From assembly GCF_017094465.1 (NCBI RefSeq), contig NZ_CP064791.1:2046001-2110000 (forward strand): DNA of 64,000 bases. Direction: 5' to 3'. The stretch's first letter is position 1. Each line of letters starts with the position of its first letter. The notes under the pieces are model-generated. The model saw nothing but the letters and a program-made list of their open reading frames with translations, was not told the DNA's origin and ran no database searches. A program made the position numbers and the translations under genes. The stretch comes from Halapricum desulfuricans. Lineage in GTDB: Archaea > Halobacteriota > Halobacteria > Halobacteriales > Haloarculaceae. This document shows positions 37,370 through 53,806 of the stretch, piece after piece.

Positions 37370-37969
37370 CTACTGGTCGATCTCGGCCCGGCCGCTGGTG
37401 GCGCTCCGAATGCGGTCCCGGAGCGCGGCCGCGTCGGGCCGGGGCACTCGCACCGCGAAGACCGCGTCTTCCCCGTACTCGGCCTCGAACTCAACGCCTT
37501 CGCTTTCGAGGATTCCCCGTACCGTGCCGCTGTCGTCGTACTCGACAGCGATCCCGAAGCGCTCGTGGGGACGCTCGGTGACGACGCCGGCGTCGTCGAC
37601 GCCTTCCTTGACGGCTCTGGAGTACGCCCGGGCCAGTCCGCCGACGCCGAGGTTCGTTCCGCCGTAATAGCGCGTCACGACGGCGACAGCGTTCTCGATC
37701 TCGCGCTGGACGAGGACGTTCAAGGCAGGCTTGCCGGCGCTACCGGAGGGTTCGGCGTCGTCGTTCTGGTATTCCCGCAGGGGATCCGCCCGGACGCGAT
37801 AGGCGGGGACATTGTGGGTCGCATCAGCGTATTCGTCGCGGATAGACTCGATGAAGGTCTCGGCTGCTTCGACGGTCGTCGCAGGGGCGACGTGGCCGAT
37901 GAACTCCGAGCCCCTGATCTCGAAGCGTGCCTGTCCCCGGCCACCGACGGTCTGGTACTGCTCGGACAC
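37370..37969 (-). CDS. IMPACT/YigZ family protein
   Basis: A 199-residue protein of the UPF0029/YigZ family. RGSEFIGHVAPA, ADATHNVPAYRV, EPSGSAGKPALNVL and VVTRYYGGTNLGVGGL are the conserved blocks; the C-terminal ~60 residues are the usual second domain. In eukaryotes IMPACT regulates GCN2; archaeal function is unknown. The GTG start at 37969 is chosen because the family begins SEQYxTV; the frame is open to 38053. Confidence 0.85.
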   Translation of the reverse strand: MSEQYQTVGGRGQARFEIRGSEFIGHVAPATTVEAAETFIESIRDEYADATHNVPAYRVRADPLREYQNDDAEPSGSAGKPALNVLVQREIENAVAVVTRYYGGTNLGVGGLARAYSRAVKEGVDDAGVVTERPHERFGIAVEYDDSGTVRGILESEGVEFEAEYGEDAVFAVRVPRPDAAALRDRIRSATSGRAEIDQ

Positions 37970-38070
37970 GCCCGGCGCTTGGCGGGCGAGTACCAAACTG
38001 CTTGCGTCTGGCAGGTGTCCCGACAGTGAGATAACAATAAAGCACTTGTACACCAGAACGAAGGGTAAAT

Positions 38071-38578: not shown

Positions 38579-41125
38579 CTATCGACCAGTGCGGTAGTTC
38601 TCCAGCAACCGCTCGACCTGTGCGTCGAGGTCGGCGAGCGCCGTCTCGACGCCGTGATCGCGGGCGTCGAGATAGGCTTCCTCGACGAGCGTCCGGACCG
38701 TGTCGAACGGACCGATCCGAGCACCGTTGGTTGCCGGGATATCCGAACTCGCGAGCAGCTCTTCGAGTGCGGTCTCGAAGTGGGGGTTCTCCCGGAACCA
38801 GCCGTCAGAGCGTAGCGTGTCGACCGCACCGTGGTTGATCGGGAAGTACCCCGTCTCGCGGTGCCAGCGAGCCTGCTGGGCTGGCTGGGCGAGCCACGCG
38901 AGGAACTCGCCGGCGAGTTGCTGCCGGGAGTCCGGGATCGCTTCGGGCACCCACAGCGAGGCCCCGCCGACGGCCAGCCCGTTGCGCTCCCCGGCGACGG
39001 GGATCGGGGCCGTTCCCAGCTCGAACCCGGCATCCTCGGCACCCGCCTGCACGTCCGCGAGCGACGAACTCGACGCGACGAGCATCGCCGCATCGCTATC
39101 GAGGAAGGTCGACCTGGCCTCCCCACGGGCCTCCACGCCGGGGTTGTGATAGAGCCCGTCAGTTTCCATCCCGGCCCACCACCCGAAGATATCGCGGCCG
39201 GCGTCGCTGTCGAAGTGCGCCTCGGTCGCGTCGCCGCCCCGACCGTTGCGCTTGTTCACGAGTGGCTGGCCGGCCTGTGCGAACCACTGCTCGACGTACC
39301 AGGCGTAGTTGGCGAAGGTGATCCCGGAGTCGGCGACGCCCGCATCGACGACGTCTCTGGCGGCGGTCCGGACGGCATCGAACGTCTCGGGCGGCCGGTC
39401 GGGATCGATCCCTGCCCGCTCGAAGGCCGTCCGGTTGTAGCACAGCACCGGCGTCGAGGAGTTGAACGGCAGCGAGTACAGCCGGTGATCGGTCGTGTAG
39501 TACGACCTGACCGGATCCAGCAGCTCCCCGGTGTCGAAGCCGGTCGGCAGGACGTCCTCGACAGGGACGAACCCGCCGCTGTCCATCGCCCGCTTGGTGC
39601 CGATCTCGAAGATCTGGGCGATCGTCGGCGGCTGGCCGTTCTCGATAGCGTTCAGCGTGGCGTTCAGCGTCCCGCGGTAGCTCCCCTTCGCGGTCAGCTC
39701 GATCGAGACCTCGCCGTCGTACTGGGATTCGAATTCGCGGGCCAGCGTTTCGAGCAGGACGCCCTTCTGGCCGCTCATCGCGTGCCACATCTCGATCGTA
39801 GTGCCGTCGGCGTCGGCCGCGCCCCGAGTCGTCTCGAAGCCTTCGAGCGATTCAGTCAGCGTTTCGGTCCGTTCGGCCAGCGTGTTGGTCGCGGTCTGAA
39901 CCTCGGTGAGGACGCTGGTCTGATCGCGGGCGGCCGCGGCGACGTCGTCGGCGGTCTCGGCGGTCTCCTCGCTGATCTCGCCGACGTCTTCGGCCATGAC
40001 CGCCACCTGCTGGGTGGACTCGGCCTGGGACTCGGTCGCGTTGCTGATCTCGCTGACCCGGCCGGACACCTCCTCGACGTCGTCGACGATGTCCTCAAGC
40101 GCCGTCAGCGCATCGTCGATCGTCGCCCGGCCGTCGCCGACCCGGTCGCGCGTCTCCCGCATGTCGGCGGCGGCCTCGTCGGCCTCCTCGCGGACCGCCT
40201 CGATCGCCCCCTCGATGTCATCGAGCGCCGACTGGGTCTCCTCGGCGAGGCCCTTGACCTCGTCGGCGACGACCGCGAAGCCGGCTCCTTCCTCGCCGGC
40301 GCGGGCAGCCTCGATCGAGGCGTTGAGCGCGAGGATGTTCGTCTGCTCGGCGATGTCGTCGATCACCTCGACGATCGACTCGATGTCCTCGACCGAGTCG
40401 GCCAGGTTCTCGACGCTCTCGAGGGTCGTCTCCGTGGTCGCCTCGATCTCGTCGAGCTCGTCCAGTGCGGCCGTCGCGGCCTCGCCGCCCGACTGGGCGC
40501 GATCCGCGGAGACTTCCGCCGCGTTGGCCACCTCCTCCGCCGAGGAGGCGACCTCCTCGACCGTCGCCGAGAGGTCCTCAACCTCCCCGGCGACGTCCTC
40601 GATGTGGTCGTGCTGTCGGTCGGCATCGGCCGAGATCTCGCGGATCGACTCGTTGACTTCCCGGCTCTGCTCGCGGACGGCTTCGGCCGTCGTGGCGACC
40701 TGCTCGGTCGCGCCGCTGACCTGCTGACTGAACTCCTGGACGCGTCTGATCGACTCTCCCCACTCGCCGATCAGTTCGTCACAGACCGCGCCGAGTTCCC
40801 GTACAGCCGGGTCTTCGGCCGCGATGTCCGTCCGAGCGGTCAGATCGCCGTCGATCGCGCGCTCCATGGTCTCCGTCGTCGCAGTAATGGCCGCCTCCAG
40901 CCGGTCGGCCCGCTCGCGTTCCCGATCGCGCTCGTCGCGAAGCTCGGCCACCTCCTCGCGAAGGCGCTCGAGTTCCGCCGGATCACAGTCCGGTTCAGCC
41001 CCCCCATCCACCGACGCCACCTGTTCTGTCGATTGTGCTGTCGATGGCTGGTCCCCGTCCTCGTCGCTCGTGTCCGACTGCCCGTCTGCGACCCCGAGGA
41101 GGAGACTGGTAACTGACGTGTTCAT
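38579..41125 (-). CDS. soluble chemoreceptor-type signalling domain fused to a solute-binding protein
   Basis: An 848-residue protein. Residues ~50-85 are a charged coiled coil; ~85-135 look HAMP-like (AIDGDLTAR); ~140-430 are an MCP signalling domain with the hairpin tip [19 protein letters not shown] at 260-278; from ~442 to the end it is an UgpB/MalE-like type 2 solute-binding protein ([14 protein letters not shown]..., then [13 protein letters not shown]). There is no signal peptide and no membrane helix, so the binding domain appears cytoplasmic. The start at 41125 ([11 protein letters not shown]) is preferred over an upstream TTG. It lies beside the alpha-glucan phosphorylase gene; a glucan or sugar phosphate ligand is inferred. 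Confidence 0.88.
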
Positions 41126-41360
41126 GAGCTCGGTGTGAGTACTATCGTTTACTCCCGTGCACAATAAGTATATTTATTTTTGATTCCCCGACCAGCGGTA
41201 AAGACCCGAAGCGGTTAAAACAGCGAGCAGAACGGTTCGTGCACGAGTTACAGACATCTGATCGTTCCGACACGGACGCCGGTTGGGACGCGGTCCGCTT
41301 CCGGAAACGGTGGCACGACAAAAGGGGAAAGTGGCTTCGAGAGCGAAGCGATGGATCGTC

Positions 41361-43055
41361 CTACTGCGAGTACGCGTCGTCGAGGTACTCACGGACCATG
41401 CGCTGGGTGTGGTAGTACGGGCCGTTGAAGGACATCGTGTTGCGCATGATGTCGATCCACTTCTCGCGGTCCTCGTAGTACATCGGGACGACCGTGTTCT
41501 CCAGCTGGTCGTACATGTCCATCGCGTCCTGTCGGTCCTCGTCCGCGGCTTCGGTCTCGTCGGGCTCGCTCTCTTCGGGCTCGGGGCCGATCTTCCAGCC
41601 GGTCTCGTTTTCGATGTGGCCTTCGACCCACCAGCCGTCGAGCGTGCCGAGTTGCGGGATACCGTTGTATGCGGCCTTCATGCCCGAGGTGCCACAGGCC
41701 TCCAGCGGCCGTCGCGGGTTGTTGAGCCAGACGTCGACGCCGGAGGTCAGCTTCGCGCCGACCTCCATGTCGTAGCCCTCGACGTACTCGACGTTGACCG
41801 CGTCGTTGAGCTGCCAGGCGTTGTGGAAGATCTCCTGGATGTTGCCGATCCCGTCCTCGTCGCCGGGGAACGCCTTCCCCGCGAACACGATCTGGAACTC
41901 GCCGACGTTCTCGGCGATGTGGCGCAGCCGCTCGTGTTCGTAGAAGATCAGGTCCGCGCGCTTGTAGGCGGTCGCCCGGCGGGCGAACCCGATCGTGAGT
42001 TTCTCGGGGTCGAGATCCGAGTCCTCGCGCTCGTTGATGAACTCGATCGTGTCCCGCTTTTCTTCCATGTGGGCCTCCCAGAGTTCGTCGTCCGGGATGA
42101 CCGAGGCGTGCTTGAGCTTGTAGGGGTTCTCGCGCCACCCCTCGACGTACTCGTCGTACAGCTCCTTGAAGGAGTCGCCGACCCAGAACGGGACGTGGAC
42201 GCCGTTGGTGATGGCGTCGATGTCGTACCCGGGGAACATGTTCCGGGAGACCTCCTGGTGTTTCTTCGCGACGGAGTTGGCGTACCGTGAGAGATTCAGC
42301 GCCAGGTACGTCATGTGCAGGTCCTCCTCGCGGCTGTACTTCTTGAGGACGTCCTGGGGCACGAACTCCCCGAGGACCTCGTTGACCAGTTCCCAGTCGA
42401 ACTGATCGTGGCCGGCTTCGACCGGCGTGTGAGTCGTGAAGACGGTCTGCTCTCGAACCGCCTCGGGGTCCATGTCGTTGCGCTTGAGCAGTTCCAGCGT
42501 CAGGAGGGCGGCGTGACCCTCGTTCATGTGGTAGGTGTCGACCTCGTAGCCGAGTTCGTCGAGGATCCGCGTCCCGCCGATCCCGAGGACGATCTCCTGG
42601 GCCAGCTGGACGTCCTCGCCGTAGCCGGGGCTGTACAGTCGCTGCGTGTACTCCCGGGCGTCCGGGTCGTTGCTCTCGACGTTCGTGTCGAGATAGATGA
42701 TCGGGACCGTCTCGCCGCTCTGCTCGGAGACGACGTCGTACTTCCAGGCCGTAACCGTCACGTCCCGACCGTAGACCGGGACCGTCACCTCAACGTCGAG
42801 TTTCTCACAGTACTCCTCAACCGGCCAGGGGTCCTCCTCGCTGATCTGTGTGCCGTCCTCTTCGAGCGTCTGCTTGCAGTAACCGCGCTCGTTGAGCTGA
42901 GCGACACAGACTGCGGGGACGCCCATGTCCGCAAAGGATCGGATCGTATCGCCCGCCAGGACGCCCAGCCCGCCGCTGTACGTCTTGACGTCGTTTTCGA
43001 TTCCGATTTCCATCGTGTAATACGCGATCCGTCCGTCCGGGTTGTCCGACACCAT
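41361..43055 (-). CDS. alpha-glucan phosphorylase (GT35)
   Basis: A 564-residue enzyme releasing glucose 1-phosphate from glucans. It belongs to the short TIGR02094-type phosphorylases: YYTMEIGIENDVKTYSGGLGVLAGD at the N-terminus (substrate channel), YHMNEGHAAL, FARRATAYKRADL and ACGTSGMKAAYNG, whose Lys region holds pyridoxal phosphate. A GTG nine bases upstream is an alternative start; AGGTGGAG precedes the ATG. Promoter: an inverted repeat (43098-43119) surrounds an AT-rich TATA-like core. Divergent from the amylase gene. Confidence 0.93.
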   Translation of the reverse strand: MVSDNPDGRIAYYTMEIGIENDVKTYSGGLGVLAGDTIRSFADMGVPAVCVAQLNERGYCKQTLEEDGTQISEEDPWPVEEYCEKLDVEVTVPVYGRDVTVTAWKYDVVSEQSGETVPIIYLDTNVESNDPDAREYTQRLYSPGYGEDVQLAQEIVLGIGGTRILDELGYEVDTYHMNEGHAALLTLELLKRNDMDPEAVREQTVFTTHTPVEAGHDQFDWELVNEVLGEFVPQDVLKKYSREEDLHMTYLALNLSRYANSVAKKHQEVSRNMFPGYDIDAITNGVHVPFWVGDSFKELYDEYVEGWRENPYKLKHASVIPDDELWEAHMEEKRDTIEFINEREDSDLDPEKLTIGFARRATAYKRADLIFYEHERLRHIAENVGEFQIVFAGKAFPGDEDGIGNIQEIFHNAWQLNDAVNVEYVEGYDMEVGAKLTSGVDVWLNNPRRPLEACGTSGMKAAYNGIPQLGTLDGWWVEGHIENETGWKIGPEPEESEPDETEAADEDRQDAMDMYDQLENTVVPMYYEDREKWIDIMRNTMSFNGPYYHTQRMVREYLDDAYSQ

Positions 43056-43097
43056 GTGCTCCACCTTTCTCGGAGTTACGGATCTCCAGGTATAACT

Positions 43098-49678: not shown

Positions 49679-52600
49679 ATGCCATCGATGCAGTCGACGC
49701 TGGGCGATTCGGGGATCGCCGAGGAGCTGGCCGAGAGCCAGCGACAGATCTCTATCGCCGAGTTCTTCGAGAAGAACAAGCACATGCTCGGGTTCGACTC
49801 GGGAGCCCGGGCACTCGTCACGGCCGTCAAAGAGGGCGTCGACAACAGCCTCGACGCCTGTGAGGAAGCCGACATCTTCCCCGACATCTACGTCGAGATC
49901 GAGGATCTGGGGGATTACTACCGGCTGGTCATCGAAGACAACGGCCCCGGAATCACCAAAGAACAGCTCCCGAAAGTCTTTGGGAAGCTACTGTACGGTT
50001 CGAGATTTCACAAGCGTGAGCAGTCGCTAACTCCCGATCAGCAGGTACTCGTCAGACGTGATGACACGATAGAGACTATCCCGATCGGCGTCCTCTGTGA
50101 TGCGTACTTACCGGAGGGCGGAGAAGCGACGCAGCCGGTGCCTGACGACATCGAAGTACCGTCTTTCAACCGTGAAACGCAGGAGATGTCGTGGGAGTCA
50201 ATCACCCACGCGATTCGACACGAAACCGACGAGGCCACGTACGAGATCACGACCGAGAAAGGCCGGACTGTCGAAGTGACAGGGAATCACAGCCTGTTCT
50301 CAGTGACGAGCATGGGAGAGACAAAAGAAATCAAAGCTGGTGATCTAGAGGCCGGTGATACGGTTCTCACTCCCAGAACGCTCCCATCTTTCGAGGAATC
50401 GATCGAATCGGTGAACCTGCTGGGGCACATCACGCCGGACCAACTCGACGGTCGGCGCGTGTACGTGTACGGGTTCGACCGGGAGACGCTCGAACAACTG
50501 CAAGACGGAGAAAAGATCCGAAAGAAGCCGTCACCGGACAGCGACCGAAAACGGACCTACTATCGGTACGACGGTGTCGACATTCTCAAAGACAGTCTCG
50601 AAACGAACTACCTCGAAAAGGGCTACTTGCCAGCGGAGACAGTAATCGAACTGGGCTGGGAAGAGAAAGCAGCCGATTGCCGGTTCAAAACGTACCAGGT
50701 TGGCGGAGAGGAGACGACGATGCCGGTGTCCGTTCAGCTCGATCAGTCGTTCATGCGCCTGCTGGGGTACTACGTCGCCGAGGGACACGTCGACGACCGG
50801 CAAGTCGGCTTCACCTTCGGTTCCCACGAGCAAGAGCTGATCAAGGAGACCGAGGCTACCGTCGCTACTGTGGGCGGGAGGACAAAGACTGTCGATCGCG
50901 AGCGTAACTCGACGCGAGTGAAAGCGTTTGGATCAGTGCTCTCGATGTTCCTCGAAACCGCCTGTGGCGAGGGGGCAGAGAACAAACGGATTCCGGACTT
51001 CGTGTTCAGGACAGGTCGCGAACGCCAGCAGGAGTTTATCACGGGACTCTACCAGGGAGACGGCTCCGATTCGCATCCGAGTAACGAACTTTCGCACACG
51101 ACGGTCAGTGAAACACTCGCACAGCAACTATCAGTACTGTGGAACATGCAAGGCGTCCTGGCGAGTACGGAAGTCGTGACCGATGGCAGTGGCTACAGCG
51201 ACGACCCCAGCACGCGCTACAGGACGAAGGTCTACGGCGAGGACGTCAATCTGTCCGACGTATTCGGTGAGCGCCGGCGACCGGGCGAACAACAGTACAA
51301 GCGCGTCCCCATATCGTTGCTCTCTGATCACCGGGTAGGACACGTCGGTCACGAAACTGTTCCGGATACGATTCCAGGGTTGTTGCTCGGAGTCGGTGTC
51401 GGTTCGAACCTTGAACACGCCGAAGTGTACGAGTCGTTGATCGAACGGGCCCTCGATGGGGAATACGTCGAGAAGCCCCGATACGTGCACAATCTCAAAG
51501 AGATGGGGCTGCTCCACGACGACCATCAGCCGACGGAAACGCTCGAAGAGCTCTGGGAGACGATCCACGAGCTTCAGGGGATCACCGAGACGGATATGTG
51601 CCTGCTTCCGGTGAAAAATGTCGAACGGACGGACCCGCCCGAATACGTCTACGACATTTCGGTTCCGGGAGCGACCGGCCACGACGAGAACTTCGTCGTG
51701 GTCAACGAGGGGGCACTCTCAGTCAAGAACAGCCGCGGCCAGCAGGGGATCGGGATCTCCGCCGCGGTGCTGTACTCCCAGCTCACCAGCGGCAAACCCG
51801 CGCGGATCACCTCCCGGACCAAGGGATCCAGCGACGCCGAGTACTTCGAGTTGATCATCGACACCGACACCAACGAACCGGAGATCAGCGTCGACGAGAC
51901 GACGACCTGGGACCGGCCACACGGCACGCGCATCGAACTGGAGATGGAAGCCAACATGCGCGCGCGCCAGAGTCTCCACGAATACATCGAGCAGACGGCC
52001 GTGGTCAACCCCCACGCTCGTATCGAGTTCGTCGAGCCCAGCCTGGACGAGCCGGCGAAGTTCGAGCGCGCCGAGGACGCCACACTTCCGGACGAGACCG
52101 AGGAGATCCGCCCGCATCCCCACGGCGTCGAACTCGGGACGCTGTTGAAGATGCTGGAGGCGACCGATTCCTACTCGATCTCCGGGTTCCTGCAGGAGGA
52201 GTTTACCCGCGTCGGGCAAAAGACCGCAGACAGCGTCGTCGACCGGTTCCGGGACCGCCACTTCGGCCGGGAAATGGCCTGGCGACCGCCACAGGCCCAC
52301 GAGAACGCGGACGTCACAGCAGCCGTCCGGGGCGCGGTCGCCAACAAGGGCAAAGAGGCGACGAAAACCTTCGCGGCGGCGGTCGCCGAGGCCGTCGACG
52401 ACCACGACCGCCTCGCCCATCACGAACTCCGTGGGATCGTCGATAGCGAGGCCGAGGCCGTCGAATCGGAGTCCGGGACGACCTTCGGTTCGACAGTCCG
52501 GGAGAAGGCCACTGAGGCCGCCTGGACACAGGTGCTGGGCGGCGACGAGGAGGAGGTTCGCACGGACGCGATCACCTCCGATCTCTATACGCTGATCGAC

Positions 52601-53806
52601 GAGGCGACCAGCACGCGGAAAGACGACGCCACGCTCCAGGGGCTTGCCGAGCGACTGGCCGCGAAGTTCGTCGGGAGCGAGGACCGTCAGCACCGACTGA
52701 CGCGCGAGGAGCTGGCCGAGTACGTCTCCCGGGCAGCCGACGCGACCGAGGAGTACGATGACGCAACCTTCGGCGAGACGGCCCGCGAAAACGTGATCGA
52801 GGCGATATGGGACGTGATGGCGACGGTACCGGACGATCCGCCGACAGTCTCGTCGATCGCGGACGACCGGGACGCGTCGTCAGAACTGCTGGAGGCGATG
52901 CGGGAGACCGACATCATGTCGCCGCCGACGGGTTGTCTCGCACCGATCACCGAGGAGCTGGTGTTGTCGGGGCTACAGAAGGAGTTCGACGCGGACTTCT
53001 ACGCCGCCGCCACCCGGGACGCCGCGGTCCACGGCGGTGACCCGTTCATCGTCGAGGCCGGGATCGCCTACGGCGGCGACCTCGAAGACGGCGGCTCCGT
53101 CGACGTGATGCGCTTTGCCAACCGCGTGCCGCTGGTCTATCAGCGCGGGGCCTGTGCGACGACGGACGTGGTCAAGGCGATTAACTGGCGCAACTACGGT
53201 CTGGATCAGCCGGGTGGGAGCGGCATCCCGAACGGCCCCGCGGTGATCATGGTCCACGTCGCCTCGACGAACGTGCCGTTCACCAGCGAATCGAAAGACG
53301 CCGTCGCGAACGTGCCCGAGATCGAAAGCGAGATCGAACTCGCGATCCGGGAGGCCGCCCGCGACCTGAAGAGCTACCTCAACAAGCGCCGCTCGATGCA
53401 GCAGCGCCGGGAGAAACAGGACAAGCTGGCGACGATCCTGCCGGAGATGGCCGAGAAACTGGCCTCGGTGACGGGACAGGACGAGCCCGACATCGACGAG
53501 GCGCTGGCCCGCATCATGAACAACGTCCTGGTCGAGCGCACCGTCGAGGACGGCACGGCGACGATCAGCGTCGAGAACAACGCCGATCGCAACGCCGACA
53601 TCGAGGTGACCGAGATCCTCGACGCCGAGCCAGGGGACGTCAACGGCGCGAACGTCGTCGAGATGGACGGCGAGTACTATCTCAAGTGGTCGCCGACGGT
53701 GGGCAGCGGCGAGACCGAACGGCTGGAGTACCGCATCGACGAGGCCGCCAACAGTGAGGTCGCCGTCGAGGGAATCAACGAGGAGAAACTCACGATCCAA
53801 TCATGA
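49679..53806 (+). CDS. top6B: DNA topoisomerase VI subunit B, interrupted by an intein
   Basis: A 1375-residue precursor: residues 1-115 and 685-1375 are the topoisomerase (806 residues after splicing), 116-684 an intein. The GHKL ATPase parts are visible: EGVDNSLDA (N box), IEDNGPGI (G1) and, after the intein, [12 protein letters not shown] (G2). The C-terminal ~600 residues are the H2TH and transducer domains with a haloarchaeal acidic insertion around residues 860-1060. Topo VI relaxes and decatenates DNA by ATP-driven double-strand passage. It overlaps top6A by four bases. Confidence 0.95.
50024..51730 (+). other. intein in Top6B with LAGLIDADG homing-endonuclease domain
   Basis: 569 residues from Ser116 to Asn684, between FHKREQ and SRGQQG. 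Block A is [10 protein letters not shown], block [10 protein letters not shown] (residues 201-209), block [17 protein letters not shown], block G ALSVKN followed by Ser+1. Two LAGLIDADG-like motifs are LLGYYVAEG (361-369) and [10 protein letters not shown] (454-463); both retain an acidic residue at the catalytic position, so the endonuclease may be active. The penultimate residue is Lys683 instead of the usual His. The site sits in the ATP-lid motif, so splicing is required for activity. Confidence 0.93.

Follow-up and report, generated by a model that had tools for sequence, protein, structure and literature searches.

Architecture and cellular location of the fusion receptor

In the window analyzed here (the whole stretch of 64,000 nucleotides of Halapricum desulfuricans DNA), a gene on the minus strand (38579..41125) encodes an 848-residue protein in which an MCP signalling part is joined to a UgpB-like binding domain, as indicated by ORF and Pfam analyses. 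Its neighbours include a UPF0029/DUF1949 gene (37370..38053; domain matches and locus comparison) and a glgP-like glucan phosphorylase gene (41361..43064; PF00343), both on the minus strand, and the phosphorylase, amylase, MalQ and TrmB genes listed by an earlier reading made from the letters alone (the sequence-only reading) were all present. The ORF starts with an ATG at 41125 and its stop ends at 38579. An alternative TTG lies upstream at 41164, and an in-frame TAA immediately before this TTG closes the frame, so that the protein cannot be extended upstream by a signal or membrane segment. Four genomes of the window's genus share the ATG start and a TATA-type promoter-like element (41162..41181, minus strand; AAATAAATATACTTATT), while the flanks of the element diverge. 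The sequence-only reading had named two circumstances that could overturn it, a missed start encoding a signal or transmembrane helix and an assembly error joining two genes. Both were excluded, since the uninterrupted fusion recurs at 56 distinct loci from 15 genera of haloarchaea and the TAA additionally rules out the first; the probability that an assembly or sequencing error created the fusion from two genes is negligible.

All parts of the protein described below are encoded on the minus strand. The N-terminus (residues 1-47; 40985..41125) is hydrophilic and predicted to be disordered (pLDDT <50), with no signal peptide or hydrophobic segment. It is followed by a HAMP-like module (residues 49-105; 40811..40981), in which a modelled helix leads to a predicted break (residues 92-105) with a conserved G93-D94-L95 motif. 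The earlier assignment of this segment thus gained the motif and the helix break but no Pfam HAMP match, for which reason we keep the label as "like" only. The MCP signalling coiled coil (residues 106-428; 39842..40810) was modelled as helical throughout, and was recognized by PF00015 (E 1.9e-45) and aligned with PDB 2ch7 over residues 136-423. The MCPsignal match itself (PF00015, E 2e-45) covered residues 218-382 and scored 155 bits against a curated cut-off of 34.6. Together with a canonical hairpin tip for CheA/CheW contact (residues 259-282; 40280..40351), which is kept across the fusions, this marks the signalling coiled coil as canonical, in agreement with the sequence-only reading. Two motif-like methylation stretches of 10 residues each, at 137 and 186, are both located on the N-terminal arm of the coil. 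A short linker (residues 429-440; 39806..39841; pLDDT <50 for 434-438), which is short in relatives too, connects the coiled coil to the binding domain.

No signal peptide, lipobox or membrane helix was found in the 848 residues, which bears out the sequence-only reading, and the hydropathy maximum ahead of the binding domain was only 0.75 (19-residue Kyte-Doolittle window). Between the end of the coiled coil (about residue 428) and the start of the binding domain (about residue 441), no relative contained a hydrophobic stretch. In an MCP, the tip that contacts CheA and CheW has to be in the cytoplasm; since the linker is only about 12 residues long, the binding domain is cytoplasmic as well. 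Thus, the view that the protein is a one-piece soluble receptor with its binding domain in the cytosol, as proposed earlier, is well supported by this topology logic, by the missing export and membrane signals and by the recurrence of the architecture. Five relatives from family f4 (L069-L073) have an extra N-terminal hydrophobic stretch, which is probably a membrane hairpin anchor. Their MCP tip still has to face the cytoplasm, and their binding domain should therefore be cytoplasmic too.

The UgpB-like domain and its pocket

The predicted glycerol-phosphate-binding domain comprises residues 441-848 (38582..39805, minus strand). SBP_bac_8 was matched at residues 461-785 (Pfam, E 5e-37), the best NCBIfam match was UgpB (232 bits, below the equivalog cut-off of 411), and the best match in a PDB sequence search was Escherichia coli UgpB (E 9e-60). 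In structural comparison of the AlphaFold model of the domain (pLDDT 96) by Foldseek and VIA-align, the top structures were the UgpB entries 6x84, 4aq4 and 9lff (Z 54.1, 48.4 and 48.1, respectively), and the next match had a Z of 41.7. A UgpB fold is therefore well supported by the predicted model, and the UgpB/MalE-like domain described in the sequence-only reading, which is complete, could be narrowed to the UgpB type.

To compare the pockets, we read the ligand contacts reported for Phaeobacter UgpB across 55 fusions and the standalone haloarchaeal homologues. In the Phaeobacter protein, which binds G1P and G3P alike, Gly303, Arg393 and Glu88 hold the glycerol hydroxyls, Tyr64, Ser143, Ser266 and Tyr342 bind the phosphate, and Trp188 and Trp191 form a clamp whose Trp residues were shown by mutagenesis to be important; the Tyr/Ser set was tied to phosphate-containing ligands, and GPC-binding relatives do not have the Trp clamp (PMC12718374). 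Eight of these nine contacts (Y, E, S, W, S, G, Y and R) were identical in all 55 fusions. In the window protein they are Y483, E507, S557, W609, S685, G721, Y760 and R811, so that the phosphate and glycerol contacts are all present. The clamp is incomplete: W609 is retained, and the equivalent of Trp188 is N606. This position was Asn in 44 fusions and Thr in 11, and was also Asn or Thr in the standalone homologues, which were looser than the fusions at Glu88 and Arg393. The change from Trp to Asn could result in a wider pocket or an altered affinity.

The strict conservation also bears on the idea that the domain binds no small molecule and instead acts as a structural or protein-docking module, for instance one that docks a Glp enzyme to the receptor array. 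Nothing directly favors such a role, although the conserved gene neighbours described below would fit docking too; since the eight pocket residues are kept more strictly than in transport homologues, we consider it improbable.

Distribution, origin and gene neighbourhood

The search for the same architecture in other haloarchaea, which the sequence-only reading had suggested, covered 392 genomes of the order together with loci fetched from it, and yielded the 56 loci mentioned above, a few of which are cut by contig ends. The nearest named relative was the fusion of Halapricum hydrolyticum (86% identical). A search of 393 genomes of the phylum gave no UgpB-like match at E <=1e-30 beyond the order, and no MCP-UgpB fusion was found in the plasmid collection.

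Phylogenetic analysis separated the MCP halves of 26 fusions, as a single clade, from 15 other MCPs (SH-aLRT 95). In the SBP tree, the intact standalone proteins also formed one clade (100/100). This tree alone placed the fusions of genus g60 beside the standalones, and monophyly of the SBP halves of the fusions was not rejected (p-AU 0.32). We therefore set aside two independent fusion events, given the single clade of MCP halves and a single origin that was not rejected. The long branch of the bacterial outgroup makes the root between the fusion and standalone SBP clades uncertain. The simplest reading is one ancient fusion that was afterwards lost in many lineages. One locus in a glp cluster (L132, genome G230) matched the binding domain over no more than its first 250 residues, had no in-frame MCP part and is apparently a broken fusion. 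In genus g60 (L087, L116, L117 and L118), the opposite strand carries a second MCP gene at a distance of 1.5-2.3 kb from the fusion.

Analysis of the surrounding genes revealed glpK within 3.5 kb of the fusion, the threshold used for linkage, at 20 of the 56 loci, which represent seven of the 15 genera and two families. The commonest order was glpA divergent from a series of fusion, glpK, membrane protein and AAA ATPase, and dhaK was also close to the fusion in several f4 loci. By genus, the chance of such glpK linkage was about 4e-9, a rough estimate that ignores shared ancestry of gene order. The remaining 36 loci had no glpK within this distance; among them are all 15 loci from genus g20 and every locus from the window's genus.

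The standalone homologues appeared in a different setting. All 23 intact copies (a count that omits L129, cut by a contig end, the broken L132 and one duplicate record) precede two permeases and an ATPase, which is the layout of a Ugp importer, and 21 of them matched a Tat-lipobox pattern, the exceptions being L144 and L147. In one case (L083), the standalone operon itself adjoins glpK and glpA. Neither Ugp-type ABC permeases nor a Tat-lipobox pattern was found at the fusion loci, and we accordingly rejected a role of the fusion as an import protein.

Two further members of the glpK neighbourhood were observed. A conserved hydrophobic protein of 326-377 residues (L078:4162-5295 and counterparts; L155:7695-8696 in the window genome) is encoded behind glpK in many haloarchaea; its L078 copy had no NCBIfam or Pfam match, and it is probably a multi-pass membrane protein and a candidate glycerol facilitator. 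The other is an Orc1/Cdc6-like AAA_16 ATPase (L078:2932-4107; window-genome copy L155:9767-10879), a conserved member of this neighbourhood that is odd company there for a replication-initiator-like protein.

Four genomes of the window's genus have the fusion between UPF0029/pgi and glgP. The window genome keeps a cluster of glpA, glpK, membrane protein and AAA ATPase at C1, about 1834-1841 kb; it lacks the fusion, and its divergent glpA and glpK are only some 250 bp apart. As this cluster persists without the fusion, the position of the gene differs in the window's genus, and the simplest reading is a relocation, which may have gone in either direction. The genome also contains three glpA-type genes and a CheA, and none of its other SBP_bac_8 matches is a closely UgpB-like standalone protein.

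On the basis of the adjacent glucan genes, the sequence-only reading had suggested that the receptor senses an intracellular oligosaccharide or a sugar phosphate, here a hexose phosphate, derived from glucan breakdown. The position between pgi and glgP in these four genomes is consistent with that suggestion, but this glgP context was not seen in any of the other 14 genera. Furthermore, the domain is of the UgpB type, its glycerol-phosphate contacts, including the phosphate-linked Tyr/Ser set, are intact in the window protein, and the fusion adjoins glpK/glpA in seven other genera. A glucan-derived ligand is therefore not supported, and we regard it as very improbable.

Proposed ligand, mechanism and related systems

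Based on the pocket residues and gene order, we propose that the fusion senses intracellular glycerol phosphate as a soluble chemoreceptor, with sn-glycerol 3-phosphate (G3P) as the most likely ligand, and give this a probability of roughly two in three. The clamp position that is Asn or Thr, in fusions and standalones alike, speaks against G3P to some extent. G1P, sn-glycerol 1-phosphate, is the archaeal lipid precursor. Given this role and the similar binding of both isomers by Phaeobacter UgpB, a UgpB domain might be an unspecific reporter of glycerol, and the replaced Trp leaves room for G1P or a glycerophosphodiester. The same cytosolic receptor could thus have G1P, or a glycerophosphodiester released by lipid turnover, as its ligand in place of the G3P made from glycerol, which would fit a pocket that keeps its phosphate and glycerol contacts and, like the GPC-binding relatives, does not have the full clamp. 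The conserved neighbours glpK and glpA, whose products make and consume G3P, argue against it, and we consider this alternative unlikely, if less so than a glucan-derived ligand or a docking role.

For the G3P receptor, we infer the ligand, the sign of the response and a conformational relay as follows. Glycerol would enter the cell, where GlpK makes G3P and GlpA removes it, so that the G3P level would report usable glycerol. G3P would close the C-terminal UgpB-like domain, which lies at the point where the returning coiled coil reaches the HAMP-like end, and the movement might be passed down the coil to the CheA/CheW-binding tip, a relay that may resemble the regulation of TlpD by its C-terminal CZB domain (PMC12871147). 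The altered CheA activity would then change archaellum switching, and the cell would steer by glycerol that it has already phosphorylated.

More generally, we lean slightly toward a widespread haloarchaeal family of metabolism-dependent glycerol receptors, in which the binding protein of an importer came to lie in the cytoplasm through fusion to an MCP, was placed in the glp operon and reads G3P made by GlpK. If so, an archaeal receptor must also cope with G1P, the mirror-image lipid precursor, which raises the question of whether it distinguishes the two. Dunaliella supplies hypersaline water with glycerol, which is a major carbon source there. The usual role of a solute-binding protein would be reversed in a chemoreceptor that uses one as its intracellular ligand domain, and the fusion offers a ready test of whether taxis follows an external nutrient or an internal product. 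In the open-access full-text literature, we found no paper on a fusion of a solute-binding protein with a chemoreceptor or on a receptor for glycerol or G3P taxis in archaea, which is not proof of absence.

Several known systems share part of this design. BasT/BasB and CosT/CosB of Halobacterium also mediate haloarchaeal taxis via a solute-binding protein, which is a separate extracellular lipoprotein acting on a membrane transducer, whereas the binding domain of the fusion is in the same chain and has no lipobox. SgrR of E. coli is a transcription factor with a solute-binding-like domain as cytosolic sensor, and resembles the fusion in this respect although the SBP family differs. Car, which to our knowledge contains no UgpB domain and has arginine as its ligand, is closest in function as a soluble haloarchaeal transducer for an intracellular metabolite; it is reportedly a cytoplasmic arginine transducer of Halobacterium salinarum, from work said to be that of Storch et al. 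in 1999. UgpB itself (E. coli 4aq4/6x84; Phaeobacter 9lff) resembles the fusion domain in fold along some 400 residues (Z 48-54) and has eight of its nine ligand contacts in common with it, but is exported and feeds an ABC importer, whereas the fusion domain is cytosolic, joined to an MCP and short of one clamp Trp. The closest in layout are TlpD-type cytosolic receptors (PMC12871147, PMC6715182), which, like the fusion, have no membrane segment and carry a C-terminal ligand domain after the returning coil. Unlike the fusion, TlpD has a Zn-binding CZB bundle at its C-terminus and an N-terminal PAS domain and senses HOCl; no CZB domain was among the Pfam matches of the fusion. PacP and other sCache_PC3 receptors (PMC12395807) also prefer G3P, but are bacterial and sense external G3P through an unrelated extracytoplasmic sCache domain; no Cache domain was among the Pfam matches of the fusion either. 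Finally, solute-binding proteins are described as extracytosolic, and their Pfam profiles also pick up proteins of the cytosol, as well as the sensor domains of signalling systems located there (PMC9602780). A cytosolic sensor of this type is therefore unusual, yet precedented in kind.

Elsewhere in the window, the gene for topoisomerase VI subunit B (49679-53806) contains an intein with a splicing domain and a LAGLIDADG-like domain.
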